IMG/VR virus record: IMGVR_UViG_3300044712_000645
Location: 1-41,129 of that record
Strand: one strand, 5' to 3'
Origin: a virus
DNA: 41,129 bases
In this document: positions 16,698 to 36,876 of the stretch, piece after piece
How the letters are laid out: each line of letters opens with the position of its first letter
How positions within the stretch are numbered: the stretch's first letter is position 1
Notes under the pieces: model-generated
Database searches by the model: none
What the model saw: only the letters and a program-made list of their open reading frames with translations
Told to the model about the DNA's origin: nothing
Program-made: the position numbers and the translations under genes

Positions 16698-17050
16698 AAT
16701 CAGGTAGTTAGAAATGGGGGGGGTCTGCATTTCCTGGGTTCAAAAAACTTCTCGAAATTGCAACCCCCCGCTTTTGTTGGCGTTTTTATGCACTCCCGTT
16801 TCCTGGTTCGCCTATATACGTATGGCTATATACACGTCTGCCTTTATAGATATATATATATATATATCCCTATGGTATATATATTATATCAACACTATCA
16901 GCTACTTGCGGATAGGAAATGCACCTATTGTACCTTGGTAAGTGTTCCCAAAGCTGTTCCCATTATCCCCACCCATCATCATGGTCAACATGCGAACCCT
17001 TCCGTGCGAACATAACATGTTTATACTGTCTACACTGTGGGTGGACCTCG
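16698..17050. other. AT-rich non-coding gap, candidate replication origin
   Basis: About 353 bases without a credible gene between convergent genes. Around the primase stop is a small hairpin (TACCT / AGGTA, 16691-16706). Then come a run of eight G (16716-16723) and, 40 bases later, six C (16764-16769), which could pair. A very AT-rich zone at 16811-16910 includes a TA alternation at about 16851-16867 and several TATATA steps. Short direct repeats follow: TGTTCCC twice near 16942-16960 and GCGAAC twice near 16992-17010. Beside the primase-helicase gene this composition suits an origin with an unwinding element; it may also hold terminators for the two convergent operons. Confidence 0.5.
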
Positions 17051-19955: not shown

Positions 19956-20172
19956 ACTTGAGAACTGGATTCTACACAACTTCGGCACGTGGTCAGCGCT
20001 TGAGGGTGACGTGTTCGAGGACCCGCGCTTTGCCGACGGGGATCGCATCCACACGTCGTATCTGCGTGCGTTCTCGCTTGACGAGAAGAAGGCGACCACA
20101 CGCAACACGGTGTATGCGCTTGGCCGCCCCGCAGGCGGATTACCCCGCGAGGAAGATGTGGTGCTGGTATGA
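19948..20172 (+). CDS. Hypothetical protein (74 residues)
   Basis: A 74-residue protein with the pattern MPRLENWILHNFGTWSALEGDVFEDPRF, then DGDRIHTSYLRAF and RNTVYALGRPAG. This beta-rich layout, with a threonine-serine step and a final LGRP, recurs in small phage and prophage proteins of unknown role. Its ATG overlaps the EEP gene end by eight bases and its TGA overlaps the next ATG (ATGA), so it is translationally linked to both. Confidence 0.65.
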   Translation: MPRLENWILHNFGTWSALEGDVFEDPRFADGDRIHTSYLRAFSLDEKKATTRNTVYALGRPAGGLPREEDVVLV

Positions 20173-20642
20173 GCGCAAGCGAAGCCTCGATGCGCCGGGC
20201 GCGTTACATTGTAGACATCGTTAGATCGTGTATTTTAGATGACTACCGCATAAATAAAGAGGCCGCCGTTAGGGCGGTCGCCGCCGCGCTCGATGAGGCC
20301 CAGGCGCTGCCGGATGGCGCGCAACACTGGAAAACGTGCGTCGATGTCAACTGCACTCATTGGGCTTGCAAGATGGGGCATGATGCAGTCGATGCTTACC
20401 GCCAGCTAAAGGCCCAGGCGCTGCCGGGGGAGTGTGACTGCGAGTTTGGTGGTGGATCGTTTCGACAATGCGACCGATGCCGTGCTCTTGCCCCCGCCCC
20501 CGAGCAGCAGGACGCCGAGTGGCCGAGTGAGGAAGAAGCTATAGATTTCGCCAAGCATCTCGACTCTGACGGCTATTTCGGCGCGATGGACATGTACCGC
20601 TGGCTCAAGGCATGGCAACAAAACAAAGGAGAAAAGAAATGA
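20169..20642 (+). CDS. Hypothetical cysteine-rich protein (157 residues)
   Basis: A 157-residue protein with a helical N-terminus (SMRRARYIVDIVRSCILDDYR) and two Cys-rich segments: CVDVNCTHWAC at about 57-67 and CDCEFGGGSFRQCDRC at about 89-104, which may bind zinc. The DNA segment ggcccaggcgctgccg occurs twice (near 20298 and 20410), encoding the repeated AQALP, a sign of internal recombination of modules. The C-terminal part is acidic. The function is unknown. Confidence 0.6.
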   Translation: MSASEASMRRARYIVDIVRSCILDDYRINKEAAVRAVAAALDEAQALPDGAQHWKTCVDVNCTHWACKMGHDAVDAYRQLKAQALPGECDCEFGGGSFRQCDRCRALAPAPEQQDAEWPSEEEAIDFAKHLDSDGYFGAMDMYRWLKAWQQNKGEKK

Positions 20643-20968
20643 ACATGGACCAACTAAAACAAGCCCTCGACATCGCAAAACTTCTTAATGGCGAAAACTG
20701 CGCGACAGATTTCCCAGAGCCCATTGGCCAAGAGTTATTTATTCGCACCGTAACGCTCTATTACACGGGGCGGCTCAAGAAAGTTTGCGGGCAGTTTATC
20801 ACACTCGAAAAAGCAGCGTGGATTCCTGATACTGGCCGTTTTAATGATTTCTTAAAAAACGGGAAAGCAAACGAGGTTGAGCCGTTTGAGGCCGATGTTC
20901 ACATTCCATTGGGCTCAATCATCGACGTGACTAAATGGGCGCATAAACTGCCCCAGGAGCAAAAATGA
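20639..20968 (+). CDS. DUF6948-like small phage protein (109 residues)
   Basis: Started at ATG 20639 because AAAGGAG lies just upstream; the frame is open to 20612. The central segment LFIRTVTLYYTGRLKKVCGQFITLEKAAWIPDTGRFNDFL, seen across residues about 33-72, has the strand-strand-AAW(I/Y) pattern of small phage proteins in the DUF6948 group (activity unknown). Its stop overlaps the repeat ORF start (ATGA). The family assignment is from pattern memory and should be tested by profile search. Confidence 0.55.
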   Translation: MNMDQLKQALDIAKLLNGENCATDFPEPIGQELFIRTVTLYYTGRLKKVCGQFITLEKAAWIPDTGRFNDFLKNGKANEVEPFEADVHIPLGSIIDVTKWAHKLPQEQK

Positions 20969-21180
20969 TTAACCAATCCATAGCCCGCGCAGGCTGGGAA
21001 TGGTCGTGGTCGTGGTCGGGGTCGCGGTCGGGGTCGTGGTCGCGGTCGGGGTCGCGGTCGGGGTCGTGGTCGCGGTCGTGGTCGTGGTCGGGGTCGCGGT
21101 CGTGGTCGTGGTCGCGGTCGTGGTCGTGGTCGCGGTCGCGGTCGCGGTCGCGGTCGTGGTCGGGGTCGGGGTCGTTATGA
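20965..21180 (+). CDS. Ser-X dipeptide-repeat ORF (71 residues)
   Basis: A frame that starts at ATG 20965 (overlapping the previous TGA) and has a 12-residue normal leader (MINQSIARAGWE) followed by 29 dipeptides of the form X-Ser, where X is Trp, Arg or Gly, ending with Leu and a TGA. The whole repeat is 29 perfect copies of NGGTCG, so the frame is kept open by a repeat length of two codons. Whether a protein is made is unknown; a Trp/Arg/Ser-rich low-complexity peptide would be disordered and could bind nucleic acid. It may instead be a non-coding repeat tract inside an operon. Confidence 0.45.
   Translation: MINQSIARAGWEWSWSWSGSRSGSWSRSGSRSGSWSRSWSWSGSRSWSWSRSWSWSRSRSRSRSWSGSGSL
21001..21174. 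repeat. 29 copies of hexanucleotide NGGTCG
   Basis: Twenty-nine exact head-to-tail copies of NGGTCG, 174 bases. The first base is T in 12 copies, C in 10 and G in 7, and is never A; the other five bases do not vary. The order of the variable base contains a duplicated five-unit block (G C G T C at units 4-8 and 9-13), so slippage or unequal exchange of 30-base segments has occurred. In the rightward reading frame the units are Trp-Ser, Arg-Ser or Gly-Ser. Copy number is likely to vary between isolates and may be misassembled. Confidence 0.97.
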
Positions 21181-22855: not shown

Positions 22856-23083
22856 ATGCCCATCTACTCAATTCCCAGCTTTGCTGAGATCAAAAAGCGG
22901 TTAGAAGATGAGGGGCGTGCCTCAACGCGCAATGTTGAGGTGGCCCTGATCGTCTATCACTGGATTGTGCGCTCTATCGTCTCAGGATACGATCTGGCAC
23001 ATGAAGAAACTCATCGAAGCACTCCGAAAACTCCTGTTTGGCCGTACAAAAGCGCCCCCGACACCCCCGAAAGCGCCCCCTAG
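22856..23083 (+). CDS. Small hypothetical protein before endolysin (75 residues)
   Basis: A 75-residue frame starting MPIYSIPSFAEIKKRLEDEG after an AAGG site, with a helical middle (VALIVYHWIVRSIVSGYDLAHE) and a Pro/Ser/Thr-rich end. The last third overlaps the endolysin gene start in another frame. The helical hydrophobic segment is about 17 residues and could be membrane-associated, so it may be a lysis partner. The long overlap lowers confidence that the whole frame is used. Confidence 0.45.
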   Translation: MPIYSIPSFAEIKKRLEDEGRASTRNVEVALIVYHWIVRSIVSGYDLAHEETHRSTPKTPVWPYKSAPDTPESAP

Positions 23084-24098
23084 CGCACCCCCCAAGAACC
23101 CCCATCCTGCGGGCTGGTTTTCAGCATATGACGCCCTTATTAAGGCGTCTTCGCTGCCTTTGCCCCCTCTTCCGGCACCTGCTCCCCAGTTCTTCCGCGC
23201 TTTGGCCACAGCTGAGAGTGGACTCAAGCCTTCGACCGTGTTTCGCGAGCCAGCTCCGCTCAACATCAACTCGGTGGGGCTACTTCAGCTCTCCTTGAGT
23301 GATGTGAAGAACTACAAGGCTGAGCACCTTGGCATCACAAGCGAAGAGGATCTTAAGGACCCGATCAAAAACCTCCAACTCGGCCTTTTGATCATGTCGA
23401 AGCTCCACCAAAAGCACCCCACGCTCAACGTGTACCAAGTGGGGGGCAAGTACTGGTCGGCTCTTCGTTGGAACATCTACTGGCCAGGCAAGCGGCAGGA
23501 CGGCTTTGAGCGTTTCCGCAAGGCGCTGGGCCAGCAGCTATCTCCGATTGAGCCGCAGCCAGCGCAGGAGAGTGATCTCGCCAATCAGATCATTGCTATT
23601 ATCGCAGCTGACGTTGATGCCAAAATGCGCGAAACGCACGGCAAAAATAGAAGCCCTCGTATTGATAGCTTTAACAAACGCACTGGAGTGCCAATGGGGT
23701 CTCCGTACTGCATGGCTGGCGCTTGGTGTGCATTGGATGATGCGTGTAGGAAGTTGGGCTTGAAGAACCCAGTTCCACCAACCGCATCGTCTCAAGGGTT
23801 TTTCAATAATGCTCCATCGAAGTATCGGCATACAGATATGCTTGGCGCTATACCAATTGCCGCTTTTGGAGTGATGCAGCAAAAGAGTAATTCTTCTCGT
23901 GGACATATCTGGGTTAATAAAGCCAGTAAGAAGTCCGGCAGTAAAACTATATCGACACTAGAATATAACACTGGCCCCGACGGTGGCCGCGATGGTGATG
24001 GTGCTTATGCAAAAATCCGAAAGGTTGACGGCACTTCAACATTGAGACAGCGTGGATGGGTCGATGTGGTGGCGTGGGTGTTGGATGCAAATAAGTGA
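23001..24098 (+). CDS. Two-domain endolysin: transglycosylase-like plus CHAP/NlpC-like
   Basis: A 365-residue protein if started at ATG 23001; the frame is open to 22965. A basic helix (1-12) and a Pro-rich linker (18-60) precede an SLT-type lysozyme-like domain with FFRALATAESGL (catalytic Glu72) and NSVGLLQLS (90-98). The second half has Cys237 (GSPYCMAGAWC), His302 (RGHIWV) and Asn323 (TLEYN), the order of a CHAP/NlpC-P60-type cysteine peptidase or amidase. No signal peptide is evident. From about residue 195 onward codons become more AT-rich, so the domains may have different origins. It is followed by an HNH gene. Confidence 0.82.
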   Translation: MKKLIEALRKLLFGRTKAPPTPPKAPPSAPPKNPHPAGWFSAYDALIKASSLPLPPLPAPAPQFFRALATAESGLKPSTVFREPAPLNINSVGLLQLSLSDVKNYKAEHLGITSEEDLKDPIKNLQLGLLIMSKLHQKHPTLNVYQVGGKYWSALRWNIYWPGKRQDGFERFRKALGQQLSPIEPQPAQESDLANQIIAIIAADVDAKMRETHGKNRSPRIDSFNKRTGVPMGSPYCMAGAWCALDDACRKLGLKNPVPPTASSQGFFNNAPSKYRHTDMLGAIPIAAFGVMQQKSNSSRGHIWVNKASKKSGSKTISTLEYNTGPDGGRDGDGAYAKIRKVDGTSTLRQRGWVDVVAWVLDANK

Positions 24099-36635: not shown

Positions 36636-36876
36636 GAAGAGCATCATCGACGAAAAGACTCTCCTCCCAGTGGGATCAATAGTCATCCTCTTTGGCTTTT
36701 GCGCATGGCTCACAACCGTCTTTGCCCAAGGGCTTGAGAACCGCACCGACATCCAAGAGATTAAGTCCGACCGTCTTCGGGATATGGACAAGATCGACCA
36801 ACGGCTAGAAAAGATCGACCAAAAACTAGAAGACATTAGGAAGGAGCTGCTCAATGGACATGGAAAAGGAAGATAA
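36628..36876 (+). CDS. Single-helix membrane protein with coiled coil (82 residues)
   Basis: Started at ATG 36628, with GGAGG-like site (GGTGGAGG) directly upstream. A transmembrane segment at about residues 14-33 (LPVGSIVILFGFCAWLTTVF) is followed by a charged coiled coil (DKIDQRLEKIDQKLEDIRKELL). An inner-membrane anchor plus periplasmic coiled coil is the layout of an inner-membrane spanin (Rz-like), although it also fits small phage membrane proteins of tail or holin type. Partner lipoproteins exist at 22627, 37629 and 157. It lies in the tail operon. Confidence 0.6.
   Translation: MDKKSIIDEKTLLPVGSIVILFGFCAWLTTVFAQGLENRTDIQEIKSDRLRDMDKIDQRLEKIDQKLEDIRKELLNGHGKGR

Follow-up and report, generated by a model that had tools for sequence, protein, structure and literature searches.

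The repeat tract in focus here makes up the main coding part of a small gene found in phages, which encodes a short leader followed by ([Trp/Arg/Gly]-Ser)n. This peptide gene and the neighboring gene for a protein with a predicted Sm/LSm fold form a conserved two-gene module, which is found in hundreds of environmental phage contigs. The peptide pattern is conserved rather than the DNA word, the unit order, or the length, and the array evolves by gain, loss, and homogenization of six-base units. The repeat peptide is described nowhere in the open-access literature and libraries searched. In its anatomy and mode of evolution, we regard the pair of peptide and Sm-like genes as a new kind of module, because the membership tests run for the peptide failed or did not place it in a known class; its function is a prediction.

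Structure of the peptide gene

The window (the whole stretch of 41,129 nucleotides that was analyzed; IMG/VR record IMGVR_UViG_3300044712_000645) is a 41 kb virus record with genes for a terminase, a P22-like portal, a helicase, and a primase-polymerase. It has 29 perfect NGGTCG units at 21001-21174. GGTCG is invariant across the tract, and the first bases of the 29 units read TTTGCGTCGCGTCTTGCTTCTTCCCCTGG (12 T, 10 C, 7 G, and 0 A). The chance of zero A at 29 variable bases is 0.75^29 = 2.4e-4. This recount agrees with an earlier note on this DNA, which had described 29 perfect repeats without A at the variable base. The note had also pointed to duplicated blocks of five units. Such blocks exist but are not clearly above chance: the longest repeated unit block is 5 compared with a shuffle mean of 4.8, and the longest exact tandem block is 5 (P = 0.07).

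As shown in Table 1, the tract lies in frame with a 12-codon leader that begins at an ATGA overlap and gives W/R/G-Ser dipeptides, just as the note had proposed. The peptide ORF (20965-21180) encodes 71 amino acids, MINQSIARAGWE-([W/R/G]S)29-L, including 13 Trp, 11 Arg, and 30 Ser, with a net charge of +10.

Table 1. Features of the two-gene module in the window
Feature	Coordinates	Strand	Basis	Remarks
Predicted Sm/LSm-fold protein gene (class A)	20639..20968	+	ORF, family alignment A1, AlphaFold2, Foldseek	first gene of the module; stop TGA 20966-20968
Shine-Dalgarno-like AGGAG	20955..20959	+	sequence	five bases 5' of the peptide ATG, within the last codons of the Sm-like gene
12-codon leader MINQSIARAGWE	20965..21000	+	sequence/ORF	ATG overlaps the upstream stop (ATGA)
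29 x NGGTCG	21001..21174	+	sequence, translation	29 [Trp/Arg/Gly]-Ser dipeptides
Last codon Leu (TTA) and stop TGA of the peptide gene	21175..21180	+	sequence, ORF	one codon after the array

The same anatomy is found in relatives. Their leaders are of the same type, M-N-x-A-x-x-R-x-G-[YFW]-[DE], and leader codons vary most at position 3 (0.59-0.65 per site vs. 0.23-0.40 at positions 1 and 2). A stop follows the last unit within three codons in 78% of complete relatives. Ser occupies 87% of the even positions in arrays, which is a strict two-residue period. Shine-Dalgarno-like matches of 5 or 6 bases are modestly enriched (21% vs. 6% at random places; 108 modules). AlphaFold2 models the window peptide mostly with low confidence (pLDDT 57), which fits a disordered chain but is weak evidence because the model was made from the single sequence, and strands are found only in and just after the leader (residues 3-16), also with low confidence. 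The tract has no match in Rfam, and PADLOC gave no match.

Another frame of the tract, Gly-Arg (GGT CGN), was considered. All variable bases are synonymous in it, and the upstream gene is read in the same frame, so that the product would be like the tail of SmD1. This frame was rejected because the stops TGA and TAG separate it from the upstream gene, relatives with NGGTCA or NGGAGC units lose Gly-Arg, and the leader and stop fit the Ser frame.

Predicted Sm fold of the partner protein

The genes preceding the arrays belong to one superfamily with two classes, A1 (47 members) and A2 (21 members), with a profile match of 96%. In the window, the start of the Sm-like gene overlaps the preceding gene (20169-20642) by ATGA, and the candidate starts are 20612, 20639, and 20645. 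AlphaFold2 (pLDDT 92) places an N-terminal helix before a strongly bent five-stranded barrel. Nearly all of the top PDB matches of this model in Foldseek are Lsm/Sm proteins (E 8.8e-4, probability 1.00), with a TM score of 0.72 by target length and 0.48 by query length. By these structure predictions, the upstream protein qualifies as an Sm-fold protein. The viral Foldseek matches of the model include proteins labeled DUF6948. Sequence profile searches place the protein in no library family, and no Pfam Sm/LSM or Hfq match was found. The A1 consensus [VI]-G-R-G-S-I-[IV]-D resembles the Sm2 motif with its R-G in the last loop, but R is found in only 51% and G in only 62% of the family. The window protein reads I-P-L-G-S-I-I-D and is without the Arg of this motif. 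Judging from the modeled fold, the Sm-like protein may bind RNA. Sm folds serve non-RNA roles too.

Distribution of the module

An exact scan of IMG/VR for eight NGGTCG units found at least 119 stretches. Among the matches listed, the flanks share the anatomy of small gene, ATGA-type overlap, short leader, array, and stop, and the small gene ends in LPRSQK or AIESFG.LK right before its stop. Among these listed matches also, 92 NGGTCG arrays come with enough sequence in front of them to judge the preceding gene, and 69 of these follow an Sm-like-type gene. In 59 of 62, the NGG codon continues the frame set by the first ATG. NGGAGC arrays, which were predicted, lie behind an Sm-like gene in 25 of 106 cases and are in frame in 17 of 18. 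The control word NGGACG (Thr for Ser) is found in 33 stretches in total, with 3 of 28 behind an Sm-like gene. Since so many independent contigs carry arrays, an assembly artifact of this window, which the earlier note had named as a possible refutation, is ruled out.

The association was also examined in reverse, with relatives picked by the Sm-like protein alone and not by the array; the class alignments for this search were themselves built from array-bearing loci. IMG/VR yielded 418 loci for class A and 303 for class B, and GTDB genomes yielded 9. The loci examined number 169 (the best 80 of 418 class A, the best 80 of 303 class B, and the 9 from GTDB). By a strict rule (five or more consecutive [W/R/G]S units), an array is found downstream on the same strand in 63 class A, 60 class B, and 6 GTDB loci. 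It is found only upstream, i.e., in reversed gene order, in 12 loci (6, 4, and 2, respectively). A same-strand undegraded array adjoins the Sm-like gene in 141 of the 169 loci vs. 5 of 169 in the opposite-strand control; these loci are the relatives nearest the query, and the array share may fall further out. Of the 28 loci without such an array, several are cut short by the edge of the contig or carry an array that has degenerated. That the association holds in reversed gene order argues for a functional link between the two genes.

Some loci depart from the simple arrangement. The array lies upstream of the Sm-like gene in, e.g., L152, L158, L183, L190, L193, L214, L263, and L273. Several tandem peptide-gene copies, each with its own leader, exist in L072, L043, L104, L112, L118, L125, and L018, and L125 has a duplicate of the Sm-like gene in addition to those of the peptide gene. 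In L149 and L087 (IMGVR_UViG_3300045141_000102), an ORF like an HNH homing endonuclease exists between the Sm-like and peptide genes.

Variation in array length

Loci L022 and L088 are 99.6% identical over 500 bp upstream, yet their arrays differ. Pairs with a contig-cut array or a misplaced start were left out of the length comparison. Among complete pairs that are 100% identical across 303 bp, lengths differ by 6 nt (L150/L151), 60 nt (L164/L167), 48 nt (L269/L275), and 84 nt (L271/L272), and complete pairs at 91-94% identity differ by 12 and 30 nt. All length differences between complete genes are multiples of the 6-nt unit. The tract is thus hypervariable, as the note had suggested from one sequence, since near-identical phages differ in array length and order; the idea that a two-codon unit keeps the frame open stands as well. 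Frameshifting copy numbers, which had been named as another refutation, were looked for across relatives and not seen. In locus L049 (near 1363-1674 of the reverse complement), an NGGTCG array has gaps that are not multiples of three and drifts through three frames, and it looks like a decayed copy.

Codon usage in the arrays

The closest relative, L128 (Sm-like protein 70% identical), has the same type of leader and NGGTCA units throughout. Units of other phages are NGGTCA, NGGTCT, NGGAGC, or NGGAGT, with a single Ser codon used array-wide. Of the 106 arrays that have 12 or more units, 45 use mainly TCG for Ser, 25 TCT, 21 AGC, 8 TCA, and 7 AGT. The TCN and AGY classes are mixed in no array. 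Because a switch between them needs two changes, it is Ser itself that is kept. The array-wide swap of the Ser codon (TCG, TCT, TCA, AGC, AGT) led us to reject a DNA word or binding-site array; the protein-binding array that the note had offered is abandoned, since the DNA word differs between phages and the peptide does not.

In nearly every array, the first bases of the units are T and G plus either A (54 arrays) or C (36 arrays), and A and C are seldom found together. The three codons of such an array are TGG (Trp), GGG (Gly), and one Arg codon, which is AGG in genomes of lower G+C content (mean 0.43) and CGG in those of higher (0.52). The window belongs to the CGG group and has no A at its variable base for this reason. 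"Never A" is thus true of the window but is not a special property of the site; it reflects the choice of a single Arg codon.

A single Arg codon is used in 90 of the 106 arrays. Within arrays, the Ser codon has an entropy of 0.20 bits vs. 1.52 bits for the first base, which is near log2(3), and the mean shares of W, R, and G are 0.32, 0.35, and 0.34. Unit order is near random, except that R and G alternate slightly more often than chance gives. W, R, and G are just what first-base changes of the Trp codon give, and Trp allows only G at the third base. Homogenization alone is insufficient because it would level the first-base column as well. Nor is a mutational hot spot at the variable base likely to be the sole cause, as A and C rarely co-occur in arrays. 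Probably, selection keeps the three-residue W/R/G mixture while the synonymous columns homogenize; selection for all three residues would explain both the persistent first-base mixture and the exclusion between A and C.

Proposed function and alternatives

The peptide may be an intrinsically disordered, strongly cationic, aromatic chain whose translation is coupled to that of the Sm-like protein. The Sm-fold protein would supply a specific binding surface on RNA (or ssDNA), and the repeat peptide would supply multivalent Arg/Trp contacts with Gly/Ser as spacers. The pair might coat phage or host RNA during infection or, by analogy with other low-complexity proteins, form a condensate. We favor this joint action on RNA or ssDNA tentatively, at somewhat less than even confidence. 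The window peptide and 110 arrays have the composition of condensate-forming low-complexity proteins (aromatic residues and Arg spaced by Gly/Ser), and composition is kept while order is free, as disordered multivalent chains allow. The nucleic-acid-binding peptide suggested in the earlier note is retained in this sense, as something that we only infer. A wider proposal is possible but on balance doubtful: that the module is a widespread viral system of a new kind, made up of an Sm-fold protein and a [Trp/Arg/Gly]-Ser peptide that stands free and evolves fast. Concerted evolution would fix all six-base columns of the peptide gene except the first base of the Trp codon, held by selection at the three-residue mixture, and the pair would form viral ribonucleoprotein assemblies in bacteria, in the manner of Sm proteins with Arg/Gly tails but split into two chains.

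A Trp/Arg-rich peptide could equally act on membranes. The main rival, which we consider unlikely, is a membrane-active cationic peptide for lysis, host killing, or superinfection exclusion, which the Sm-like protein regulates or restrains. The 13 Trp, 11 Arg, and charge of +10 in 71 residues are in its favor, as are the tolerance of order changes in Trp/Arg-rich antimicrobial peptides and a transglycosylase-domain gene about 2 kb downstream in the window (22965-24098). However, half of the residues are Ser, the peptide gene is coupled to the Sm-fold gene even in reversed order and not to lysis genes, and the module in MW202573 adjoins helicase and repressor genes. A silk-like or amyloid-like fiber or sheet that scaffolds a phage compartment is quite unlikely. 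An extended strand would put Ser on one face and W/R/G on the other, which suits the strict two-residue period (Ser in 87% of even positions) and the freedom of order and length on the other face, but predicted strands are confined to residues 3-16 at low confidence, and the high charge opposes simple stacking without a polyanion.

It is very unlikely that the nucleic acid itself is active, with GG every six bases serving as a platform in the mRNA or DNA (for example, as G-quadruplexes of two tetrads or as serial sites for an Sm-like ring). NGG is kept in nearly all arrays (GGG is 545 of 573 Gly codons, and AGG plus CGG are 669 of 697 Arg codons), but the other half of the unit varies (TCG, TCT, TCA, AGC, AGT), and only among Ser codons. 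Third-base deviations are similarly frequent in Arg/Gly codons (3.9%) and Ser codons (5.0%), so peptide selection plus homogenization is enough to account for how tightly GG is kept; the leader, start, and stop fit the Ser frame, and Rfam has no match. We give as little probability to a non-functional or selfish coding microsatellite that rides beside a useful gene. Slippage-type length variation and decayed-looking copies (L049 and the degenerate arrays in relatives) speak for it. Against it, the array stays in frame next to the Sm-like gene across both diverged classes and both gene orders, the W/R/G mixture persists though synonymous variants are homogenized away, and Ser is kept through two codon classes. 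The contingency-type locus of the earlier note, phase-variable by slipped-strand mispairing, is highly improbable. Unit number is indeed highly variable between near-identical phages, but with a 6-nt unit and differences of 6, 12, 30, 48, 60, and 84 nt, the frame is kept and nothing is switched off, and rare frame drifts (L049) resemble decay.

Comparison with known systems

Eukaryotic LSm/Sm proteins such as LSm4 and SmD1/SmD3 have Arg/Gly-rich tails. Like members of the Sm/LSm/Hfq superfamily, the module has a partner with a predicted Sm fold and an Arg-rich low-complexity chain alongside, but here the chain is encoded by a gene of its own, has Ser at every second residue, and contains much Trp. 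Among the loci examined, the Sm-like protein and the peptide were never seen fused. RS domains of SR proteins and sticker-and-spacer regions share Ser/Arg dipeptide repeats, aromatic and Arg residues with Gly/Ser between, and composition over order. Unlike the RS domains of eukaryotic SR proteins, the phage peptide is a free-standing microprotein without a folded domain in its chain, and Trp is about as common as Arg. Like Trp/Arg-rich antimicrobial peptides, it is cationic, rich in Trp and Arg, and order-tolerant; it is longer, half Ser, and the product of a cytosolic-type gene whose coupling is to the Sm-fold gene. Slippage-type copy-number variation within a coding tract is also seen in contingency loci and coding minisatellites, whereas the 6-nt units of the peptide gene keep the frame and there is no on/off switching. 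As in diversity-generating retroelements, variation is limited to particular codon positions, but the variable base is not adenine-derived (the window has no A) and units are gained and lost array-wide. No reverse transcriptase was found among the subset of window ORFs scanned.

Low-complexity regions of prokaryotes and phages are reported to be poor in aromatic residues and Arg (PMC6821194), so a common Trp/Arg-rich, composition-keeping family is unexpected. Its hundreds of natural variants offer a test of sequence rules for a disordered, composition-defined peptide. The link to the Sm-fold gene suggests that uncultured phages use the module to handle RNA, and only two small genes are needed to test this.

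Deposited records, hosts, and other repeats

A protein search of 50,697 deposited phage records gave matches only in two metagenome-derived records, and a DNA search of annotated phages gave no match. MW202573 carries MNAAIIRAGLDASWSWSW.., annotated as a hypothetical protein. In MW202825.1 (L298:3628-3640), tandem peptide genes end in Illumina-adapter-like letters, agatcggaagagcg, and the record is marked UNVERIFIED_CONTAM.

One GTDB match comes from an Isosphaeraceae (Planctomycetota) MAG, where it sits on a 649 kb contig with a terminase gene about 10 kb away; this suggests a Planctomycetota host. On this contig (L215 and L456-L457), the module is near terminase, ArdC, TrwC relaxase, ParB, and TraG genes, as in an integrated phage or phage-plasmid.

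The window has other repeats. AT-rich tandem repeats directly follow the primase gene (16813-16898) and could be a replication origin. Short tandem repeats are also found at 36790-36831 and 171-197 (a 21-mer x2 and CCTCAC x4.5).
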